Assembly: GCF_000832305.1 (NCBI RefSeq)
Contig: NZ_CP010537.1
Location: 3,534,001 to 3,598,000 of the forward strand
Origin: Cupriavidus basilensis
Lineage (GTDB): Bacteria; Pseudomonadota; Gammaproteobacteria; Burkholderiales; Burkholderiaceae
DNA: 64,000 nucleotides
Direction: 5' to 3'
How positions within the stretch are numbered: position 1 is the stretch's first letter; each line of letters starts with the position of its first letter. The notes under the pieces were generated by a model. The model had not been told where the DNA came from. It searched no databases and saw only the letters and a list, made by a program, of their open reading frames with translations. A program made the translations under genes and the position numbers. Below, piece by piece: positions 33,560 to 48,223 of the stretch.

Positions 33560-33635
33560 TGGTGGAGGATGACGGGATCGAACCGACGACCCCCTGCTTG
33601 CAAAGCAGGTGCTCTCCCAGCTGAGCTAATCCCCC
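33560..33635 (-). tRNA. tRNA-Ala (anticodon TGC)
   Basis: A 76-base tRNA beginning GGGGGATTAGCTCAGCTGGG with the anticodon loop CTTTGCAA (TGC), the T-loop GGTTCGATCC and an encoded CCA end. It lies in its usual place between tRNA-Ile and 23S. Confidence 0.97.
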
Positions 33636-33683
33636 AAATACTACTGACGCCGGAAGCTCAACATCGAACCACCGTCTATAACT

Positions 33684-33760
33684 TGGTGGGTCTGGTAGGA
33701 CTTGAACCTACGACCCCCGCCTTATCAAGACGGTGCTCTAACCACCTGAGCTACAGACCC
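33684..33760 (-). tRNA. tRNA-Ile (anticodon GAT)
   Basis: A 77-base tRNA beginning GGGTCTGTAGCTCAGGTGGT, with anticodon loop CTTGATAA (GAT), T-loop GGTTCAAGTCC and an encoded CCA end. It follows 16S as in most proteobacterial rRNA operons. Confidence 0.97.
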
Positions 33761-37639: not shown

Positions 37640-37770
37640 AATTGCGGGCGTCCAAACATTTGCCTTGCTCTCGGCAATTTAATGAATATAGTATACCGAC
37701 TTTGGAGGCAGCCCCGATTGCCGCCAACCCGGACGCCATAGCAGCGGCCCCCACAATACGGAGCGAATGC

Positions 37771-39279
37771 GTGACGCGGCAAGACATAGCAAGCACCGAC
37801 ACCCGGCCGCCAAAGGCGCGCTTCCTGCCAGTTTGGGAAGCCGCAGCGCTATTGGCCAAAGGCGACACCAGCGCGCAGGACCTGGTGAACTGGTGCGAGG
37901 CGGCCTATGCCGCCTCGCATCGGGAGATCAACGCCCTCATCCTGGCGGATTTCAGCGCCGCGCGCGCCGCGGCCGAGGCCAGCGACCAACGCCGGCGCCG
38001 TGGGGAGCCGCTTGGCTTGCTGGACGGCATTCCCTACTCCATCAAGGAATCCTTCGACGTGGCAGGCTGGCCCACCACGTGCGGCAACCCGGCGCAGCGC
38101 CACAACATTGCGATCAGCGACTCGGCCGTGGTCGAGCGCCTGCGCGCGGCCGGCGCGGTCCTGCTGGGCAAGACCAACGTGCCGATCGGGTTGCGCGACT
38201 GGCAAAGCTACAACGCCATCTACGGCACCACCCGCAACCCGCGCGACCCCGGCCGCACCCCGGGCGGTTCGTCCGGCGGCAGCGCCGCGGCGGTTTGCGC
38301 GGGCATGAGCTTCTTTGACGTGGGCTCCGATATCGGCTCGTCGCTGCGCAACCCGGCGCACTACTGCGGCGTGTTCTCGCACAAGAGCAGCCACGGACTG
38401 GTGCCGCTGCGCGGCCACGGCATCGGCCACGGCTACGGCGAGCAGGAGATCAATGTAGCCGGGCCGCTGGCGCGCAGCGCGCACGACCTGGAACTGCTGC
38501 TGCGGGCGCTGGCTGGCCCGGACGGCATTGAAGCGCAGGCCTATCGCCTGACGCTGCCGCCCTGCGACAAGCGCACGCTTGCCGACTTCCGCGTCGCCGT
38601 GCTGCCTAGCCATCCGCTGTGCGAGGCGGACGGGGAAGTCAGCGACGAAATCGAAAAACTCGGCCGCTGGCTGGAGGGACAGGGCGCCCAGGTTCGCTGG
38701 AACGCGCGCCCGGACTTCGATGCCTCGGCTCTCTGGCACACCTACGTGCTGATGCTGCGGGCTACCACGTCGATCCATATGGACGACGCTGGCTTCGATG
38801 CCGCGCTGGCCCGCGCCGCAGGCGCCGCGCCCGACGACCACAGCTACGCCACGCTGCAATTCACCGGCGCCGGCATCCGGCACCGGCAATGGCTGCAGTT
38901 GCAGCAAGCCCGGGCCACCTTCGCGCAGGCCTGGCAACGCTTTTTTGGCGAGGTCGACGTGTTGCTGTGCCCGGCAGCGGCCACTACCGCCTTTGTGCTG
39001 GATGAAGCCGGCGAGCCGTGGCAGCGCATGCTCCAGGTCAACGGCCGGGCGCAACCGCTCACCAGCCAGCTGTTCTGGGCCGGGCACTCCGGCCTGTGCG
39101 GCCTGCCCTCGACGGTGGCGCCGATCGGCCCGGGCCGCAGTGGCCTGCCGGTGGGCGTGCAGATCGTCGCCGGCAAGTTCGAGGACCTGACCACCTTGCG
39201 TTTTGCCCAGTTGCTGGAAGCAGCGGGTTTTGCCTTCCGGCCACCGCCGGCCTCGGCTCAGTCCCAGTCCCAGTCCTAG
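37771..39279 (+). CDS. Amidase (amidase signature family)
   Basis: A 502-residue amidase with Lys92 (YSIKESFDV), cis-Ser167 (PGGSSGGSAAA) and nucleophile Ser191 (GSDIGSSLRNPA). The GTG start is chosen for its ACGGAG site 7 bases upstream; the frame is open to about 37642 without a better start. The gene is followed after 84 bases by an MFS importer on the same strand, so the pair probably takes up and hydrolyses an amide. It is only distantly similar to the amidase at 6562-7968 (different spacing and active-site flanks), so the two are not recent duplicates. Substrate unknown. Confidence 0.92.
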   Translation: MTRQDIASTDTRPPKARFLPVWEAAALLAKGDTSAQDLVNWCEAAYAASHREINALILADFSAARAAAEASDQRRRRGEPLGLLDGIPYSIKESFDVAGWPTTCGNPAQRHNIAISDSAVVERLRAAGAVLLGKTNVPIGLRDWQSYNAIYGTTRNPRDPGRTPGGSSGGSAAAVCAGMSFFDVGSDIGSSLRNPAHYCGVFSHKSSHGLVPLRGHGIGHGYGEQEINVAGPLARSAHDLELLLRALAGPDGIEAQAYRLTLPPCDKRTLADFRVAVLPSHPLCEADGEVSDEIEKLGRWLEGQGAQVRWNARPDFDASALWHTYVLMLRATTSIHMDDAGFDAALARAAGAAPDDHSYATLQFTGAGIRHRQWLQLQQARATFAQAWQRFFGEVDVLLCPAAATTAFVLDEAGEPWQRMLQVNGRAQPLTSQLFWAGHSGLCGLPSTVAPIGPGRSGLPVGVQIVAGKFEDLTTLRFAQLLEAAGFAFRPPPASAQSQSQS

Positions 39280-39363
39280 ACCCAATCCCACACGGTATAA
39301 CGCGCCCCTGCGCCCAAAAAAACCAGCGCACCGCCCCCGAAGCAACGACACGAAGGAGAGAGC

Positions 39364-40704
39364 ATGTTCACGTGGTTCAAGGATTTATCGACAATGGAGC
39401 GCAAAGGCTTTTACGGCGCGTTCCTCGGTCATGCGGTCGACGTGTTCGACTTCATGATCTATTCCTTCCTGATTTCGACGTTGCTCACCCAGTGGGGCAT
39501 GAGCAAATCGGCCGCCGGCGCCATCGTCACCTGGACCTTGGTGTCGTCACTGGTGGGCGCTATCGGCGCGGGCGTCCTGGCTGACCGCTATGGCCGGGTG
39601 CGCGTGTTGCGCTGGACCATCGTGGTGTTCGCCGTTGCCTGCTTCCTGTGCGGGCTGGCCAACACCCCCGAGCAACTGCTGGCCTTCCGCATGCTCCAGG
39701 GCCTGGGTTTCGGCGGCGAATCCTCGCTGTGCATGGTGCTGGTGACGGAAATGATCCGCAACCCGGCGCACCGCGGTAAATACTCCGGCTTCACCGCCAG
39801 CAGCTACTCCTTCGGCTGGGGCGCGGCGGCCGTTGCCTACGCCATCACCTTCAGCATCTTCCCGGCCGAAACCGCCTGGCGCGTCTGCTTTTTCATGGGC
39901 ATCCTGCCAGCGCTGGTAGTGATCTACCTGCGCCGCAACCTGGAAGAGCCGGAAGTCTTCACCAAGAGCCAGGCCGAACGTGCCGCTGCTGGCGCCGGCA
40001 GCGGGCCCACCGCATGGCAGCAGCTGGCGCGGCTCGGCCGCAGGCCGCTGCTGGGCAAGACCGTACTGTGCAGCCTGCTGTCGGGTGGCATGCTGGGCGC
40101 CTACTATGCGATTGCCACCTGGCTGCCCACGTTCCTCAAGACCGAGCGCGGGCTGTCGGTGTTCGGCACCAGCTCCTACCTCGCGATGACGATCGCTGGC
40201 TCGCTGGTGGGCTACGTGGCCGGTGCCTATGCCACCGACCGCTGGGGCCGCCGCCAGACCTATATCGCCTTTGCCGCCGGCGCCTTTGTCATGGCGCTGG
40301 TCTATATGGTGATCCCGGTCTCCAACACGTCGATGCTGTTCCTGGGCTTCCCGCTGGGCGTGCTGATGCAGGGCGTGTTCGCCGGCATCGGCGCCACCAT
40401 CTCGGAGTCTTATCCCAACGATATCCGCGCCACGGGCTATGGCGTCTCGTACAACGTCGGGCGCGTGATCGGCTCGCTGTTCCCGCTGACGGTGGGCTGG
40501 CTCAGCACCGGCCGCACCTCGCTGCCACTGGCCATCGCGATCGTGGCCGGGGTGGGCTACATGATGGTGATGGGCGCCGCCTTGCTGCTGCCGGAAACCA
40601 AGGGCATGGACCTGGGCCAGGCCGGTGGCGACGACAGCGCGCACGAGCCGTCCGGGGACGCCGACAAGACCGTGCTGGCGCCAACTGTGGGCAAGCCCGC
40701 ATAA
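39364..40704 (+). CDS. MFS transporter, sialate/aromatic-acid symporter type
   Basis: A 446-residue major facilitator with 12 predicted helices. The family marks are the first helix FLGHAVDVFDFMIYSFL, loop-2 motif GVLADRYGRVRVLRW, and the symmetric GAYATDRWGRRQTYI between helices 8 and 9. This pattern fits the NanT/AAHS symporters that import organic acids with protons. An AAGGAG site precedes the ATG. It is in an apparent operon with the amidase upstream, suggesting import of the amide or export of its product. Confidence 0.93.
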   Translation: MFTWFKDLSTMERKGFYGAFLGHAVDVFDFMIYSFLISTLLTQWGMSKSAAGAIVTWTLVSSLVGAIGAGVLADRYGRVRVLRWTIVVFAVACFLCGLANTPEQLLAFRMLQGLGFGGESSLCMVLVTEMIRNPAHRGKYSGFTASSYSFGWGAAAVAYAITFSIFPAETAWRVCFFMGILPALVVIYLRRNLEEPEVFTKSQAERAAAGAGSGPTAWQQLARLGRRPLLGKTVLCSLLSGGMLGAYYAIATWLPTFLKTERGLSVFGTSSYLAMTIAGSLVGYVAGAYATDRWGRRQTYIAFAAGAFVMALVYMVIPVSNTSMLFLGFPLGVLMQGVFAGIGATISESYPNDIRATGYGVSYNVGRVIGSLFPLTVGWLSTGRTSLPLAIAIVAGVGYMMVMGAALLLPETKGMDLGQAGGDDSAHEPSGDADKTVLAPTVGKPA

Positions 40705-41212: not shown

Positions 41213-41680
41213 TCGCACCGGCCACCGCGCTGCTCACCGAATTGGTGCACATCGCGCATCGAAGCAGGCGATCTTGCACCAGCGCCGCCAAGCGGCATGC
41301 CACGATCCGGCGCATTTGGAACCCGGCGCTCACCGCTGCCGTTGGCACACCTCTTGCTGAACAAACCATCGAGTAGAAGCGGTTAGCGCCGATGCGCCTC
41401 CCCCAGCGGGCAGGCGCATGCCGGCGCGGGACATTGCTCTCGCGACCATCCGGTCGCACGCCCGGTTGACTCGCATCGCGAGGCATCCGGGCGTTTGGAT
41501 CCGGCCACCAGGCCGGGCACGAGAGAAAAGAGAGCGCCCACGATGTCCCCCATCTTCACGCCCTTATTCCATTTCGCGGACGCCTCTGCCGGCCATGGCG
41601 CCGCTTGCGTCCCGCGTCGTCGCCCGCCTGTCGCCGTGCCCGCCTCGGTTTCCCCCGCAAACATCCGCACAGGAGCCCCC
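41213..41680. other. 468-base intergenic region with no gene seen
   Basis: Frames in this stretch have no credible starts or protein-like composition, and an ATG-led frame reading into the next gene lacks a ribosome site. I see no strong palindrome or terminator. It probably holds the promoter of the ABC-transporter/Rieske operon; AGGAG at 41671-41675 is that operon's first ribosome site. Confidence 0.5.
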
Positions 41681-42676
41681 ATGAAGACGCCTTCCCCATT
41701 GCGCCGCCTGTTGATTACCGGCGCCTGCGCCGCGCTCACGCTCGCCGCCATCCCCGCCACCGCGCTAGCCGCCGACAAGGTGACGTTCCTCACCTCCTGG
41801 TATGCCCAGGCGGAGCATGGCGGCTTTTATCAAGCGGTAGCGAAAGGCATCTACAAGAAGTACGACCTCGATGTCACCGTGCGCATGGGTGGCCCGCAGG
41901 TCAACGGCATGCAGATCCTCACCAGCGGCCAGGCCGACTTCCTGATGGGCTATGACCTGCAGGTGCTCAAGAGCGTGGAGCAAGGCGTGCCGGTGACCAC
42001 CGTGGCAACCTCCTTCCAGACCGACCTGCAAGGCATGATGACCCACGAGGACGTCAAGAGCCTGGCCGACCTGAAGAGCCGCACGGTGCTGGTCTCCACC
42101 TCGGGACGCACCACGTGGTGGCCGTGGCTCAAGGGCAAGTACAGGCTGGAGGAATCCCAGTCGCGCGTCTACACCTTCAACCTGCAGCCCTTCTTTGCCG
42201 ATCCGCAGGCGGCCCAGCAGGCCTATGCCTCTTCCGAAGTGTTCTCGGCCAGCAAGGCAGGTGCCAAGACGCGCTTCTTCCTGTTTGCCGACGATGGCTA
42301 TCCGCCCTACGGCACCACGATCGTCGCCATGCAAAAGACGGTCAAGGAGAAGCCGGACGTGGTCGCGCGCTTCGTCAAGGCGACCATGGAAGGCTGGAAG
42401 AGCTACCTGGCGGACCCTGCCCCGGCCAATGCGCTGATCAAGCAGGAAAACCCCAACATGAAGGACGACCAGCTCGCCTGGGGCGTGGAGAAACTCAAGG
42501 AGTACCACATGGTTGACGGTGGCGACGCGGCCCGCTACGGCATCGGCGTGATGACCGACGCGCGCTGGCAGAAGACGCGCGACTTCATGGTGGGCGCCGG
42601 GCTGCTCAAGGCCGATGCCGACTGGAAACAAGCCTACACCACGCAGTTCGTGAAAGACCTGAAGGTCATGCCCTGA
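41681..42676 (+). CDS. ABC transporter substrate-binding protein (NMT1/SsuA-like)
   Basis: A 331-residue periplasmic receptor. The signal peptide ends near ATALAADK, followed by the NMT1/THI5 motif FLTSWYAQAEHGGFYQAVAK, GGPQVNGMQILTSGQADFLM and later a two-lobed binding fold. Family members bind riboflavin, pyrimidines, sulfonates or other small nitrogen or sulfur compounds. It heads a five-gene operon with a Rieske oxygenase, ATPase, permease and amidohydrolase, so its ligand is presumably the substrate of those enzymes. Confidence 0.94.
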   Translation: MKTPSPLRRLLITGACAALTLAAIPATALAADKVTFLTSWYAQAEHGGFYQAVAKGIYKKYDLDVTVRMGGPQVNGMQILTSGQADFLMGYDLQVLKSVEQGVPVTTVATSFQTDLQGMMTHEDVKSLADLKSRTVLVSTSGRTTWWPWLKGKYRLEESQSRVYTFNLQPFFADPQAAQQAYASSEVFSASKAGAKTRFFLFADDGYPPYGTTIVAMQKTVKEKPDVVARFVKATMEGWKSYLADPAPANALIKQENPNMKDDQLAWGVEKLKEYHMVDGGDAARYGIGVMTDARWQKTRDFMVGAGLLKADADWKQAYTTQFVKDLKVMP

Positions 42677-42725
42677 AGCGCGCGGCCTCGCCGTTCAAGC
42701 TCAACCCCATACAAGGATATTTGAC

Positions 42726-43763
42726 ATGCTGGTCACCCAACAACCCGTCCTGCGCCGCTTCTGGTATGCCCTGATGCCGATCTCGATGCTCGACGATGGC
42801 CCCAAGCCCTTTACCCTGCTGGGCGAAAACCTGGTGCTGTGGAAGGGCGGCGACGGCAAGCCGGCGGCGCTGCAGGACCGCTGCTGCCACCGCACCGCAC
42901 GCCTGTCCAAGGGCTGGGTCAACGAGCGCGGCGACATCGTCTGCGGCTACCACGGCTGGGAATACAACTGCTCGGGCAGCTGCGTGCGGATTCCGCAAGC
43001 GCCGGACAACGCCATTCCCTCTGGCGCGAAAGTGCAGGCCTATCACGTGCAGGAGAAGTACGGCTACGTGTGGGTGGCGCTGGACGATCCGCTGCAGCCC
43101 ATCCCCGATTTCCCCGAGGATGGCGACCCCACCTACCGCCGCATCTTCCAGTTCTACGAGAAGTGGAACACCAGCTCGCTGCGCGTGATGGAGAACGCCT
43201 TCGACAACTCGCACTTCAGCTTCGTGCACCGCGCCAACTTTGGTTTGTCCGAGCAGCCCAAGCCGGAGAAGTACGAGCTGCTGCAGCGCGAGTGGGGCTT
43301 CGAGGCGCAGACGCTGGTGCCGATCCGCAATATCGAGGCGGGTCACCGTGTGACCGGCACCACCGAGCCGATCACGCATCGCCATATGTTCAACCGCTGG
43401 GACCTGCCGTTCACGCGCCGCTTCGGCTGCACCTATCCGGCCAGCGGGCGCCATCACATCATCTACAACTGCGCCACGCCGATCGACGACAAGAGCGTGA
43501 TGCTGTCGCAATGGCTGTACCGCAATGACAGCGAGGAAGACTGCTCGACCCAGGAGCTGATCGACTGGGACGCGCCCATCGTCGCCGAGGACCGCGACAT
43601 CCTGGAAGCCACCGACTACGACGCCTGCGTGGACACGCGCCGCCGCATTGAATTCCATATGGAATCCGACAAGCCCGGCTTGCTGATGCGCAAGATGCTG
43701 ATGGAACTGTTCACCCGGCATGGCGAGAAGGAGACCTTCCGCATTCCCGTGGTTCGCGGTTAA
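42726..43763 (+). CDS. Rieske (2Fe-2S) oxygenase, VanA-like oxygenase component
   Basis: A 345-residue single-component terminal oxygenase. The Rieske cluster ligands are Cys53/His55 (DRCCHRTARLS) and Cys73/His76 (IVCGYHGWEY). The catalytic iron site is seen as the conserved NAFDNSHFSFVHR (about residues 158-170). Size and layout match the vanillate/toluenesulfonate demethylase-like group, which hydroxylates or demethylates N- or O-methyl groups. No reductase gene is in the operon, so electrons must come from elsewhere. Position between SBP and ATPase genes is odd for a catabolic enzyme and ties it to the imported compound. Confidence 0.94.
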   Translation: MLVTQQPVLRRFWYALMPISMLDDGPKPFTLLGENLVLWKGGDGKPAALQDRCCHRTARLSKGWVNERGDIVCGYHGWEYNCSGSCVRIPQAPDNAIPSGAKVQAYHVQEKYGYVWVALDDPLQPIPDFPEDGDPTYRRIFQFYEKWNTSSLRVMENAFDNSHFSFVHRANFGLSEQPKPEKYELLQREWGFEAQTLVPIRNIEAGHRVTGTTEPITHRHMFNRWDLPFTRRFGCTYPASGRHHIIYNCATPIDDKSVMLSQWLYRNDSEEDCSTQELIDWDAPIVAEDRDILEATDYDACVDTRRRIEFHMESDKPGLLMRKMLMELFTRHGEKETFRIPVVRG

Positions 43764-43809
43764 GCCGGAGTTCGGATAGCCCCTGGAACCATTCCATACG
43801 GAGACAGCC

Positions 43810-44724
43810 ATGAGCGTACTCTTTCGCAGTATCACGCAAGCCCCCGCCGCGGCCCCGAGCGCCAGCGGCCGTGCGCCCGACGCCGGCGGCGAGCCCGCTG
43901 GCACCAGCCGGCGCGATGCCGGCGCACCGCTGCTGTTCGCCAACCAGGTCGAGAAGACCTACCCCAACGGCACCGTCGCGCTGGAGCGCGTCAAGCTGGC
44001 GATCAAGCCCGGCGAGTTCGTCTCGCTGCTGGGGCCCTCCGGCTGCGGCAAGAGCACCTTGCTCAAGCTGTTTGCCGGATTGGAAATGCCGTCGGCGGGC
44101 CATATGCGCTGGTGGGGCAACCCATCCCTTCCGAACGGAACAAACGCCGCCACCGACAGCGCCGGCCGCACGCTGGCGATGGTGTTCCAGGAAGCCACGC
44201 TGATGCCGTGGGCGCGCGTGGCCGACAACGTGCGGCTGCCGCTGGACCTGGCCCGCATGCCGCGCGCCGACGCCAACGAGCGCGTGCAGCGCGCGCTGGC
44301 GCTGGTGGGGCTGGGCCGCTTCGCCGCGGTCTTTCCGCGTGAGTTGTCGGGTGGCATGCAGATGCGCGTGTCGATCGCGCGGGCGCTGGCGAACAATCCG
44401 GACCTGCTGCTGATGGACGAACCCTTTGGCGCGCTCGACGAGTTCACCCGCAACAAGCTCGACGCTGACCTGCGCGCGCTGTGGGCCGAGCGCGGCCTCA
44501 CCGTGGTCTTCGTCACCCACAGCATCTATGAGGCGGTCTACCTGTCGAGTCGCGTAGTGGTGATGGCGGCACGGCCGGGCCGCGTGATTGCCGACGTGGC
44601 CATCGAAGGCCCCGTGGTCCGCGATGAGGCCTTCCGTGTTTCGCCCGCCTTCATGCAGTACTGCGCACAGTTGTCAGCGCTGCTCGCGCAGGCCAACACC
44701 GGCGTCGACCCCAACGAGCACTAA
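43810..44724 (+). CDS. ABC transporter ATP-binding protein (SsuB/TauB-like)
   Basis: A 304-residue ATPase with Walker A (GPSGCGKSTLL), Q-loop (VFQEATLMPWARV), signature (LSGGMQMRVSIARAL), Walker B (LLLMDEPFGALDE) and the H-loop (VTHSIYEAVYLS). An N-terminal extension of about 35 Ala/Gly/Pro-rich residues precedes the domain. It follows the Rieske gene by 46 bases and energises the permease downstream. Confidence 0.95.
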   Translation: MSVLFRSITQAPAAAPSASGRAPDAGGEPAGTSRRDAGAPLLFANQVEKTYPNGTVALERVKLAIKPGEFVSLLGPSGCGKSTLLKLFAGLEMPSAGHMRWWGNPSLPNGTNAATDSAGRTLAMVFQEATLMPWARVADNVRLPLDLARMPRADANERVQRALALVGLGRFAAVFPRELSGGMQMRVSIARALANNPDLLLMDEPFGALDEFTRNKLDADLRALWAERGLTVVFVTHSIYEAVYLSSRVVVMAARPGRVIADVAIEGPVVRDEAFRVSPAFMQYCAQLSALLAQANTGVDPNEH

Positions 44725-44768
44725 GCCCGGCAGCAGCATCGGTCCCGCAAACAACAAGGAGCCCCCCC

Positions 44769-45563
44769 ATGAATCCCCCGCTATTGTCGCGCCCCCCGGT
44801 ACAGCGCGTGGCCGCCCCGCTAGCCGTCGGCGTGCTGCTGTTGCTCGCCTGGCAGGCGACATGCACCGTGCTCGCCGTACCCGTGTACCTGGTCCCCACG
44901 CCCACCGCCATCGGCCATGCGCTGGCGGAAGACTGGAGCCTGCTGTGCGGCTCGCTATGGGTGACGCTGCGCATCACCATGCTGGCCTTTGCGCTGGCCG
45001 TGGTGGTCGGCACCGCCGCGGCGTTCATCTTCGTGCAGAGCCGCCTGATCGAGGCCAGCCTGTTTCCCTACGCGATCCTGCTGCAGGTCACGCCGGTGGT
45101 GGCTATCGCGCCGCTGATCATCATCTGGGTCAAGGAGCCGACGCTGGCGCTGGTGATCTGCGCGGCCATGGTGGCCGTGTTCCCGATCATCTCCAACACG
45201 GTGCTGGGACTGCGCAGCGTCAACCCCGGCCTGCTCAACCTGTTCCGCATCAACCGCGCGAGCCGCTGGGATACCTTGCGCCGCCTGCGCATTCCCAGCG
45301 CGCTGCCGTATTTCTTCGGCGGCCTGAGGATCTCCTGCGGCCTCGCGCTGATCGGCGCGGTGGTAGCGGAGTTCGTGGCGGGCACCGGCGGCACGGGCGC
45401 GGGGCTGGCTTACCAGATCCTGCAGGCTGGCTTCGCCCTCAATATCCCGCGCCTGTTTGCCGCGCTGTTCCTGATCACGCTAACCGGCGTCGCGTTGTTC
45501 GGCGCCATGGTCGTGGTATCGCGCATGGCGCTGTCCCACTGGCACGAGAGCGAGCTGGCATGA
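44769..45563 (+). CDS. ABC transporter permease (SsuC-like)
   Basis: A 264-residue inner-membrane protein with about six helices and the binding-protein-dependent permease motif region (LRRLRIPSALPYFFGGLRIS) that couples to the ATPase. A ribosome site AAGGAG lies just before the ATG. Its last codon overlaps the amidohydrolase start (ATGA), so the transporter and the enzyme are translated together. Confidence 0.95.
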   Translation: MNPPLLSRPPVQRVAAPLAVGVLLLLAWQATCTVLAVPVYLVPTPTAIGHALAEDWSLLCGSLWVTLRITMLAFALAVVVGTAAAFIFVQSRLIEASLFPYAILLQVTPVVAIAPLIIIWVKEPTLALVICAAMVAVFPIISNTVLGLRSVNPGLLNLFRINRASRWDTLRRLRIPSALPYFFGGLRISCGLALIGAVVAEFVAGTGGTGAGLAYQILQAGFALNIPRLFAALFLITLTGVALFGAMVVVSRMALSHWHESELA

Positions 45564-47029
45564 CGACCAACACCATCCTGATCCGCAATGCCACCGCCAT
45601 CCTGACCGGCCTTCATGGCAACGGCGAGGGCGAGGGCGAGGGCGAAGGCGAGCGCCATGCCGGCCCGGACCTGCGCGTGGCCGGCCGCACCATCGAGGCC
45701 ATCGGCAAGCTGGCACCGCGCCCCGGCGAACAAGTCATTGATGCCACCGACTGCGTGGTCTACCCGGCCTGGGTCAACACCCATCACCACCTGTTCCAGT
45801 CGCTGCTCAAAGGCGATCCGCCGGGGCTGAACCTGACGCTCACGCCCTGGCTCGGGGCTACGCCTTACCGCTTCCGCGCCGCCTTTGACGAAACCACCTT
45901 CCGGCTCGCCGCCCGCATCGGCCTGATCGAACTGGTACGCAGCGGCTGCGGCACGGTAGCGGACCACAACTATCTCTACTATCCCGGCATGCCCTACGAC
46001 AGCTCGGCCATCCTGTTCGAGGAGGCCGAGGCGCTGGGGCTGCGCTTTGTGCTGTGCCGTGGCGGCGCCACCCGCACGCGGCAGCTGGAGAGCGAACTGC
46101 CGCAGGCGTTGCGCCCCGAAACGCTCGACCAGTTCCTGGGCGATTGCGAACGGCTCACCGCGCGCTACCACCAGCCCGCGCCGGATGCGATGCGGCGCGT
46201 GGTGATGGCGCCAACCACGCCGCTCTACTCCATGTCGCCCGAGGAGTTGCGCACCAGCGCGCGCACCGCGCGCCGGCTTGGCATCCGGCTGCACAGCCAT
46301 TTGTCGGAGACGGTGGAATACCAGAACGCCGCGCGCGACAAGTACCAGACGACACCCGTGGCCTTCTGCGGCGAGCACGAGTGGCTGGGCAGCGACGTCT
46401 GGTTCGCCCATCTGGTGAAACTGGGCGCGGACGAAATCCGCCAGCTCGGCGCAACCGGCACTGGTATCGCGCACTGCCCGCAGAGCAACGGCAGGCTGGG
46501 CAGCGGCATCGCGAACATCCCGGCGCTGGAAGCCGCCGGGGTGCCGGTGTCGATCGGGGTGGACGGCGCCGCCTCCAACGAAGCGGCCGACATGATCTCC
46601 GAGGCGCATGCGGCATGGCTGCTGCAGCGCGCGCGGCGAGGCCATGGCGCCCGCCCGCGCGCCGAGGGTGGCGACCATGAAGGCGGCGCTGACGCCGCGC
46701 GCGTGGAAGACGTCGTGCGCTGGGGCACGGCGGGCGGCGCGGCGGTGCTTGGCCTGGATGCGGTGGGCACGCTGCAGCCGGGCAAGGTGGCCGACCTCGC
46801 CATCTACCGGCTCGACGACCCGCGCTGCTTTGGCCTGCACGATCCGGCCATCGCGCCCGTGGCCAGCGGTGGGCGGCCAGCTCTGCGCGCGCTGCTCGTG
46901 GCTGGCCGCGTGGTGGTGGAGCATGATGCGATTCCGGGGCTGGACCTTGCCGAGCTTGGCGCTGCCGCGCGCGACGCGGTGCTGCGCTTGCAGCACCGCG
47001 CAGCACAATCCGCGGCGCCACATCCTTGA
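45560..47029 (+). CDS. 8-oxoguanine deaminase-like amidohydrolase
   Basis: A 489-residue metal-dependent hydrolase of the cytosine/8-oxoguanine deaminase and AtzB/TrzN group. Metal and active-site motifs are visible: NTHHHLF (about residues 74-80), HSHLSETVEY, VWFAHLVKL, GIAHCPQSNGRLGSG and GVDGAASNEAADM. The last two are characteristic of 8-oxoguanine deaminases and triazine hydrolases. A GE repeat (GEGEGEGEGE) encoded by five GGCGAG units sits near the N-terminus, and a charged insertion (GARPRAEGGDHEGGADA) near residue 365. Linked to the transporter by an ATGA overlap, it likely deaminates or dechlorinates the imported ring compound. Confidence 0.9.
   Translation: MTTNTILIRNATAILTGLHGNGEGEGEGEGERHAGPDLRVAGRTIEAIGKLAPRPGEQVIDATDCVVYPAWVNTHHHLFQSLLKGDPPGLNLTLTPWLGATPYRFRAAFDETTFRLAARIGLIELVRSGCGTVADHNYLYYPGMPYDSSAILFEEAEALGLRFVLCRGGATRTRQLESELPQALRPETLDQFLGDCERLTARYHQPAPDAMRRVVMAPTTPLYSMSPEELRTSARTARRLGIRLHSHLSETVEYQNAARDKYQTTPVAFCGEHEWLGSDVWFAHLVKLGADEIRQLGATGTGIAHCPQSNGRLGSGIANIPALEAAGVPVSIGVDGAASNEAADMISEAHAAWLLQRARRGHGARPRAEGGDHEGGADAARVEDVVRWGTAGGAAVLGLDAVGTLQPGKVADLAIYRLDDPRCFGLHDPAIAPVASGGRPALRALLVAGRVVVEHDAIPGLDLAELGAAARDAVLRLQHRAAQSAAPHP
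45623..45652 (+). repeat. GGCGAG hexanucleotide repeat in the amidohydrolase gene
   Basis: Five tandem units of GGCGAG (the fourth is GGCGAA) encode a Gly-Glu run near the N-terminus. Being in-frame multiples of six, copy-number change would alter length without frameshift. Confidence 0.8.
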
Positions 47030-47035
47030 TCCAGG

Positions 47036-48223
47036 CTAGCCTGGGCGCGGGCCGACGTATGCGGCACGCGGGCGGATCAGCTCGGCATCCGCACGCTGCT
47101 CCAGCGCGTGCGCGATCCAGCCGATGGAGCGGCCAAGCGCGAACATGCCGAAGGCCGCGCCGGGCGGCAGCCGCAGATGCCGGCGCAGCGCCACCAGTGC
47201 AAAATCGATCGATGGCCGCTGCCCCACCAGCGCAAAAGCGTCGTCGATGAACGCTTGCCATTGCGGGTGATGCGGGAGTATCCGTGCCAGCAGGCCGGCG
47301 GCGCGGATGTCGCCGGCGGGGTAGAGATGATGGCCAAACCCCGGCAGGTTCTCGCCGCGGGCAAGCCGCTCGCGCAGCTTCGATGCGGGCTGGGCCTCGC
47401 CGAGTTCGTCCCAGAGAGCCTCCACGCGGGCGGTGGTCCCGCCATGCAGGCCGCCGGTCAGCGCGGCCAGCCCAGCGACCACGGATGCGCGCAGGCTGGC
47501 GCCGGTGGACGCCACGCAGCGGGACGTGAAGCTCGACGCGTTCAGCTCATGGTCGGCGCAGAGCACCAGCGCCATGCGGATCAGGTCCGCGCCCTCTTCG
47601 TCCACCTGCCAGGCGCTGGCGCATTGCCGATGGACCGGCGCGCTGGCGGGCGCCGTGTGCAGCAGGCAGGCCGCCAGCAAACGCACCAGCGCGCCGCAGC
47701 CCTCGGCAAGGCGTTCCGGTGACCTTTGCCACTGCGCCGTGGGGTCGTCTTCGCTGGCGATGGTAAACAGCGGCAGCAGCGCCTCCTCGCTGCGCCGCCC
47801 GGAGAAGGCCGCCTGCATTGCCGCGAGGTGCGCCGGCGCAAGCGGCGCTGCGCCAAACGCCGCGTCCTGGGGGCACTGCCACAGCAATGCGGCCACCGCT
47901 TCCACGGTGTCCGACGCGGCCAACGCAACGGCATCCATACCCCGGTAGTAGAGCCGCCCGTCCTCAATCAAGGTGATCCCCGATTCCAGCACCGGCAAAC
48001 CCCAGCTCAACGTGGCCTTGGCCACCTCGCGAGGCTTGCGGCCACGTGTGCGCTGGCCGGCCAGGCGCGCAACGTCGTCGGCGAGATAGCGGCTCTCGCG
48101 GTGGGTTTCGCCATCGTGCGCGTGCAGCAAGCCACGGCTGACATAGGCATAGAGCGTCTGGCGGGACACGCCAAGCTGGGCGGCGGCTTCGGAGGAAGTC
48201 AGGTAGCGGGGCACGGGCGACAA
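47036..48223 (-). CDS. Citrate synthase family protein with N-terminal helix-turn-helix
   Basis: A 395-residue fusion. Residues 6-60 are an excisionase/MerR-like DNA-binding domain (YLTSSEAAAQLGVSRQTLYA, then YVSRGLLHAHDGETH). The rest is a citrate synthase fold with all catalytic positions visible: His in DHELNASSFT, His in GGLHGGT, and Asp in PSIDFAL; the usual GFGHRVY is GFGHHLY. Fusions of this kind are widespread in Burkholderiales, often beside CoA-transferase genes, and their function is unproven. A metabolite-sensing autoregulator is an attractive inference: a perfect palindrome lies just upstream. It converges on the amidohydrolase gene with 6 bases between. Confidence 0.92.
   Translation of the reverse strand: MSPVPRYLTSSEAAAQLGVSRQTLYAYVSRGLLHAHDGETHRESRYLADDVARLAGQRTRGRKPREVAKATLSWGLPVLESGITLIEDGRLYYRGMDAVALAASDTVEAVAALLWQCPQDAAFGAAPLAPAHLAAMQAAFSGRRSEEALLPLFTIASEDDPTAQWQRSPERLAEGCGALVRLLAACLLHTAPASAPVHRQCASAWQVDEEGADLIRMALVLCADHELNASSFTSRCVASTGASLRASVVAGLAALTGGLHGGTTARVEALWDELGEAQPASKLRERLARGENLPGFGHHLYPAGDIRAAGLLARILPHHPQWQAFIDDAFALVGQRPSIDFALVALRRHLRLPPGAAFGMFALGRSIGWIAHALEQRADAELIRPRAAYVGPRPG

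Follow-up and report, generated by a model that had tools for sequence, protein, structure and literature searches.

The 64,000-nucleotide stretch of Cupriavidus basilensis DNA analysed here (contig NZ_CP010537.1, positions 3,534,001 to 3,598,000; hereafter the window) stems from a genome of 8.42 Mb in two contigs and carries, behind a predicted xanthine riboswitch, five genes for an ATP-binding cassette (ABC) importer, a Rieske oxygenase and an amidohydrolase. We consider it an even chance that this riboswitch-controlled operon imports, oxidises and deaminates an oxidised pterin-like heterocycle, most likely a pterin of the isoxanthopterin type that is degraded toward xanthine. In broader terms, the gene set probably serves the salvage of pterins or of related purine-like waste. 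The genes, the riboswitch, their conserved co-occurrence and the replacement of the oxygenase in related loci can be read directly from the sequences. We see in this locus an ordinary member of a regulon that is published but functionally open, and for which the comparison gives a specific, testable substrate. What the comparison adds to the published association of riboswitch and genes is the interchange of Rieske and 2-oxoglutarate (2OG) oxygenases and the tie of the amidohydrolase to the structure 2PAJ, and the latter link, together with interchangeable oxygenase families under one switch, leads to a short list of enzyme assays.

All five genes are on the + strand, and the Pfam domains of their products score above the curated cut-offs. 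The first gene (41681-42676) encodes an NMT1/THI5-type substrate-binding protein (SBP; NMT1, PF09084, 106.6 bits) and is followed by the genes for a VanA_C-type Rieske non-haem iron oxygenase (42726-43763; Rieske, PF00355, and VanA_C, PF19112), the importer ATPase (43810-44724; ABC_tran, PF00005, 118.8 bits), the importer permease (44769-45563; BPD_transp_1, PF00528, 82.6 bits) and the amidohydrolase (45560-47029; Amidohydro_1). The intergenic distances are 49, 46, 44 and -4 bases, the last being an ATGA overlap of permease and amidohydrolase. An initial annotation of the window had described five co-directional genes with short gaps and this ATGA coupling, and the open reading frames and the overlap are indeed found as it described them. 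Its term “SsuABC-type importer” holds insofar as ABC importer genes are present, but the label is loose, as the SBP misses the SsuA model (TIGR01728, 43.4 vs 163.5 bits). The best PDB match of the SBP is 4nmy (70 bits), followed at 40 bits by a formylaminopyrimidine-binding protein and at 32 bits by THI5/THI13 proteins.

The amidohydrolase

The amidohydrolase clearly exceeds the cut-off of the NCBIfam model PRK12393 (NF009059; 757 bits, cut-off 543), and its top PDB match is 2PAJ (730 bits, 69.1% identity over 473 residues), which carries the PDB name “putative cytosine/guanine deaminase”. 2PAJ is in turn 99.4% identical over 469 residues to an enzyme of Paraburkholderia fungorum (locus L079; locus numbers are our own) that sits in a five-gene operon with riboswitch, as in the window, and the two are sisters in the amidohydrolase tree with a support of 100/100. 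In the alignment, 183 columns are at least 97% invariant and common to 2PAJ, and at 64 positions of this kind, neither 7WW2, which bears the name 8-oxoguanine deaminase, nor the related 3HPA has the same residue. The motifs NTHHH and VDG.ASN are found in 81/81 cases each, HSHLSET in 78/81.

We take 2PAJ to be Sgx9339a, the isoxanthopterin deaminase of Hall et al. 2010; in a screen of pteridines, purines and pyrimidines, this enzyme was reportedly active on isoxanthopterin and pterin-6-carboxylate only. The window enzyme resembles 2PAJ in its 69% identity, in the common family-specific residues and through the nearly identical P. fungorum operon counterpart, whereas the operon context, the riboswitch and a partner oxygenase are not known to be part of Hall et al. 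2010. That work is cited for isoxanthopterin deaminase in PMC11121863 and is also cited in PMC5270733, where Sargasso Sea amidohydrolases of this group are described as deaminating isoxanthopterin and pterin-6-carboxylate. These comparisons predict fairly strongly that the window amidohydrolase is isoxanthopterin-deaminase-like.

An assignment as 8-oxoguanine deaminase or triazine hydrolase, with dehalogenation as a possible reaction, had been suggested by the initial annotation and had to be abandoned. The enzyme stays below the cut-offs of the 8-oxoguanine deaminase model (PRK08203, 387 vs 532 bits) and of the triazine and N-ethylammeline chlorohydrolase models (150.6 vs 609 and 146.4 vs 617 bits), 2PAJ is closest, and a true 8-oxoguanine deaminase is encoded elsewhere in the genome (749 bits; L114:6861-8243, about position 1556860 of G000:C1). 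The two deaminases belong to the same COG0402-type amidohydrolase family. The guanine deaminase model TIGR02967 is missed as well (102.8 vs 375.4 bits). Near the N-terminus of the amidohydrolase, a run of GAGGGC-like hexamers (45620-45660) encodes Gly-Glu repeats, a stretch that is absent from 2PAJ.

The riboswitch and its leader

The aptamer (41366-41444, + strand) was detected by cmscan with the Rfam model of the xanthine (NMT1-motif) riboswitch (RF03054; 50.1 bits, gathering score 36, E = 3.8e-9), which overturns the earlier statement that the locus contains no regulator. It is the single copy found in the host genome, and none of 14 control genomes has one. Our own covariance model R1, which was built from 15 leader sequences including that of the window, gives the aptamer 73 bits. 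In these 15 sequences, 92.8% of the cells of the P1 and P2 helices are paired, a percentage that none of 500 shuffles reaches; four pairs are changed on both sides, which 51 of 500 shuffles equal, and 12 sequences do not form the outermost P1 pair. The junction nucleotides are invariant in all 15, an invariance inflated by the strict-motif selection of the sequences. The data argue strongly that 41366-41444 belongs to the xanthine riboswitch class, from which its ligand response is predicted here.

Riboswitches of this class bind xanthine (~3.7 uM) and urate (~25 uM), reject methylxanthines, and constitute an OFF switch that probably acts at translation, as shown for other members (PMC7373994); a structure is available (PMC8266621). 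Because such an OFF switch binds xanthine or urate, one of these compounds is expected as the product of the controlled pathway. Yu and Breaker (2020, PMC7373994) list NMT1/TauA SBPs, Rieske and 2OG dioxygenases, PRK12393 amidohydrolases and Tsx behind the riboswitch, a published tie of these gene types that the initial annotation overlooked. The window and this NMT1-motif regulon are alike in the aptamer family and the downstream gene types; in that paper, the set is read as purine oxidation, and the precise functions of the dioxygenases are not established.

The leader between aptamer and SBP (41445-41680, + strand) is the presumed expression platform. An AGGAG sequence is seen by eye immediately 5' of the SBP start, hairpins are predicted in the window leader, and there is partial conservation among six Cupriavidus-type leaders. 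A general pairing of the leader with the 3' strand of the aptamer was tested and found no support, as in 75 leaders a mean of 57% of shuffles equalled the observed pairing, with 11 of the 75 at 5% or below; in the Cupriavidus and Rahnella groups, such a pairing may exist. An ATG at 41543 starts a frame (41543-41680) that is open into the SBP gene in the window, L007, L008 and L014, and its counterpart in L011 and L013 is an ORF of 19 codons, a possible leader peptide.

Conservation of the unit

For the comparison, genome contigs were scanned once; a relative of the amidohydrolase is encoded in 240 stretches, and the 80 best of these were covered. Genes were called and clustered in these 80 loci, and key genes were checked by tblastn. 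The amidohydrolase gene occurs across Burkholderiales, Pseudomonas and Enterobacterales, its closest named relative being that of C. basilensis OR16 with 95% identity. Of the 80 loci, 62 retain the order SBP-Rieske-ATPase-permease-amidohydrolase, in some with one or two inserted genes, and in one of the 62 (L007, a draft contig) with partial Rieske and ATPase matches. Two of the 64 Rieske-positive loci, L068 and L084, were not counted, as they have only a distant Rieske protein within 8.5 kb (27 and 35% identity). In L084, a permease-ATPase-Rieske-Rieske-SBP set with 64-78% identity lies 7 to 11 kb downstream on the opposite strand, and this set has no amidohydrolase. The five-gene arrangement is conserved beyond chance, and a search for the same gene order in other genomes, the check that the initial annotation had proposed, is thereby answered.

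The riboswitch was found with our own model in 75 of the 80 loci. As 14 of these 75 had served to train the model, the training-free figure is 61 of the 66 other loci. In three of the five misses (L009, L051, L057), the contig starts at or past the expected site, and in the other two (L068, L084), there is no matching SBP gene ahead of the amidohydrolase. The RF03054 model itself scored above gathering in all seven loci tested (11 matches). Fourteen matches of our own model are weak (21.7-28.8 bits, E 0.0015-0.082), and six of these, in L010, L016 and L018, exceed the Rfam gathering score; in L012, L015, L017, L019 and L080, the call comes from our own model alone. The gene that follows the 91 matches with E up to 0.082 encodes the SBP in 62 cases, a VanB-type reductase in 12, a Tsx channel in 8, a 2OG oxygenase of our cluster c17 in 8 and the amidohydrolase in one, and a 92nd match (E 0.48) looks like chance.

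In L067, L074, L075, L085 and L086 (Rahnella, Rouxiella) and in L117 (Klebsiella), a second cluster is divergent to a riboswitch-SBP-amidohydrolase-2OG operon and encodes a VanB-type reductase, a cytosine-deaminase-like amidohydrolase, RidA, a creatininase-family protein, a second NMT1 ABC importer and, where the locus extends far enough, an FAD-binding oxidoreductase. An “endoribonuclease” gene also follows a pterin deaminase gene of Variovorax (PMC9513972), and its product may be RidA. In the C. basilensis genome, a search for the creatininase, run without a positive control, gave none, and a search for the cytosine-deaminase-like companion gave only a 27% match. On a Variovorax plasmid (L120:6127-9074), a Rieske gene with 57% identity lies behind a riboswitch match of 29.9 bits, and the divergent side has a riboswitch match of 29.7 bits, an SBP-like gene (25% identity) and then a gene for a TadA-like deaminase. 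To judge from this plasmid, the type of deaminase may be exchangeable, too.

Exchangeable oxygenases

The window oxygenase belongs to the VanA-type Rieske proteins, as it has the Rieske and VanA_C domains as well as the ligand motifs C-x-H...C-x2-H (cluster ligands, residue 53) and D-x2-H-x4-H (mononuclear-iron ligands, residue 160). In 14 of the 80 loci, a 2-oxoglutarate/Fe(II) oxygenase is encoded and no Rieske gene lies within 8.5 kb; 13 of these enzymes belong to cluster c17 and one (L045) to c6. Two loci remain, of which L051 is cut at the contig end and L062 has a c6-type oxygenase on the opposite strand, at a distance of about 9 kb. The c17 gene is divergent with a riboswitch of its own in eight of its 13 loci and lies directly 3' of the amidohydrolase in the riboswitch operon in five. 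One c17 member has the domains DIOX_N and 2OG-FeII_Oxy, the motifs HxD...H and RxS are present in 13/13, and among solved structures thymine dioxygenase came out best for both members compared. When only well-supported branches of the amidohydrolase tree are counted, at least two changes are required to explain the c17 state. Both Rieske and c6 enzymes are encoded in 15 loci, and L021 and L023 have a Rieske enzyme, another 2OG enzyme and a second SBP. An oxygenase thus nearly always accompanies the unit, and it comes from either of two unrelated enzyme families.

In 33 of the 80 loci, 27 of which have a Rieske gene, a VanB-like reductase is encoded no more than 8.5 kb from the amidohydrolase. 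The earlier remark that there is no reductase is correct for the window operon, but it does not apply to these related loci. Elsewhere in the host genome (L113; G000:C1:2936000-2955900), a gene for a VanB-like reductase that is 42% identical to that of L044 is found a few kb away from an XdhB-like gene (320 bits), and this reductase is a possible electron donor for the window Rieske protein.

A proposed pathway from pterins to xanthine

How could importer, oxygenase and deaminase work together under a xanthine switch? In the mechanism that we propose, the NMT1-type ABC system would import the pterin, and the amidohydrolase would take off the 2-amino group, converting isoxanthopterin to 2,4,7-trihydroxypteridine. 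The Rieske oxygenase, with a reductase supplied from elsewhere in the genome, would oxygenate the pyrazine ring, enzymes encoded elsewhere would contract the ring to xanthine, and xanthine dehydrogenase and urate oxidase of the cell would burn the xanthine. When xanthine or urate accumulates, the leader RNA would bind it and switch expression off, probably at translation. We infer the substrate, the order of the steps, the ring position that is oxidised and the end product. As XdhB (1358 bits) and urate oxidase (458 bits) are encoded elsewhere in the genome, the cell could readily dispose of xanthine formed as the end product.

In work on Alcaligenes from the 1960s, McNutt is reported to have followed isoxanthopterin through 2,4,7-trihydroxypteridine, tetrahydroxypteridine and xanthine-8-carboxylate to xanthine, and such a pathway would suit a set of importer, deaminase and oxygenase genes that xanthine represses. 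Extended to the whole regulon, the core function could be a pterin-to-xanthine salvage, in which isoxanthopterin would be imported and deaminated, the exchangeable Rieske or 2OG enzymes would oxygenate the pyrazine ring to give tetrahydroxypteridine, and ring contraction would lead to xanthine-8-carboxylate and finally xanthine; we put this forward tentatively, as a possibility with somewhat less than even prospects. If true, it would give genes to the Alcaligenes pathway and explain why xanthine represses genes that make no obvious purine, and already the pterin assignment of the operon would provide genes for bacterial pterin breakdown. The initial idea that transport, oxygenase and deaminase genes form a single unit acting on a nitrogen heterocycle, and that other loci supply the further steps, is supported, whereas N-demethylation is no longer the leading idea.

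Several points weigh against a pterin as substrate. No pterin-specific gene was found among the ten window genes put to Pfam, and we know of no gene for the ring contraction. The best in vitro substrate of 2PAJ may differ from the natural one. The nearest solved relatives of the Rieske protein are SxtDIOX (135 bits), SxtT (129 bits) and NdmA (126 bits), of which the first two act on saxitoxin-type substrates and the third is the methylxanthine N1-demethylase. An annotated xanthine hydroxylase, HpxD, is 32% identical over 324 residues, a comparison with one sequence known by annotation only (AP028202.1); it shares with the window protein the VanA-like Rieske type and has a purine ring substrate, but its gene is neighboured by rubredoxin and FAD oxidoreductase genes, and the riboswitch model finds no match in the locus (L119). 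No reductase is encoded near the window operon or dedicated to its Rieske enzyme there, and the host genome has ten reductase-like matches of at least 88 bits, the best of which is 42% identical to the partner reductase. Moreover, the riboswitch literature assigns these genes to purine oxidation, and isoxanthopterin appears in the main text of that paper, as far as available, only as a purchased compound (PMC7373994).

Among titles and abstract openings, a coverage that leaves most subscription journals aside, we found no publication that joins the riboswitch operon to an isoxanthopterin deaminase or describes the exchange of Rieske and 2OG enzymes, and none that describes the Alcaligenes isoxanthopterin pathway or 2PAJ. 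A urine study from 2018 has tetrahydroxypteridine and xanthine-8-carboxylate, in its available part, only as alternative assignments of one mass (PMC5941619).

Alternative substrates

What other substrates could explain the operon? The strongest alternative, though in our view rather unlikely, is purine oxidation proper as read by Yu and Breaker, in which a purine is imported, deaminated in the manner of guanine, and hydroxylated by the Rieske or 2OG enzyme at the hypoxanthine or xanthine stage without molybdenum, with xanthine and urate as repressors. It would agree with the annotated HpxD, a molybdenum-cofactor-independent xanthine hydroxylase among the VanA-type Rieske proteins, and with Tsx channel genes close to the operon in 13 of the 80 loci and xanthine/uracil-type permease genes in five. 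However, a separate guanine deaminase (580 bits) and a xanthine permease (551 bits) are encoded elsewhere in the genome, as are the true 8-oxoguanine deaminase, XdhB and urate oxidase, so that another route from guanine to urate would duplicate existing functions. The deaminase of the operon also comes from a different family, and in a screen that included purines, 2PAJ reportedly acted on the two pterins only. The riboswitch ligands themselves, xanthine and urate, speak for purine oxidation (PMC7373994).

Improbable is a salvage of N-methylated purines such as 7-methylguanine, in which the deaminase would produce a methylxanthine and an NdmA-like Rieske enzyme would demethylate it to xanthine, which then represses. 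NdmA is near in the Rieske comparison, but this similarity is remote. Thymine dioxygenase, to which the 2OG stand-in c17 is nearest, oxidises a methyl group, and the rejection of methylxanthines by the riboswitch would fit the sensing of a demethylated end product (PMC7373994). Against this, Pfam searches with 20 recurrent clusters of neighbouring genes, which covered all but seven of those listed, revealed no enzyme that looks like formaldehyde handling, and nothing indicates that a PRK12393-type deaminase accepts methylguanines. Finally, it is very improbable that a triazine, man-made or from plants, or another heterocycle is degraded, as the distant likeness of the amidohydrolase to triazine hydrolases (3ls9, 168 bits) stands against the failed chlorohydrolase models, the link of the operon to oxidised purines or look-alikes through its riboswitch, and the spread of the gene over Burkholderiales, Pseudomonas and Enterobacterales.

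Neighbouring genes

The genes for an amidase and a major facilitator superfamily (MFS) transporter upstream (37642-40704) were considered as members of the unit and rejected for lack of conservation across the 80 loci. The amidase is matched only in L007 and L008, and the MFS transporter in the same two loci plus a 25% match in L042. L011, L013 and L014 have the operon without these upstream genes, and L009 is uninformative in this respect, as its contig begins just before the SBP gene. Further upstream, between 30000 and 36000, the G+C content falls to 52-54% around genes for tRNA-Ala and tRNA-Ile (33560-33760, - strand), an arrangement reminiscent of an rRNA operon. On the other side, the operon is met convergently by a gene (47036-48223) for a citrate-synthase-like protein with an N-terminal helix-turn-helix of the excisionase/MerR type.

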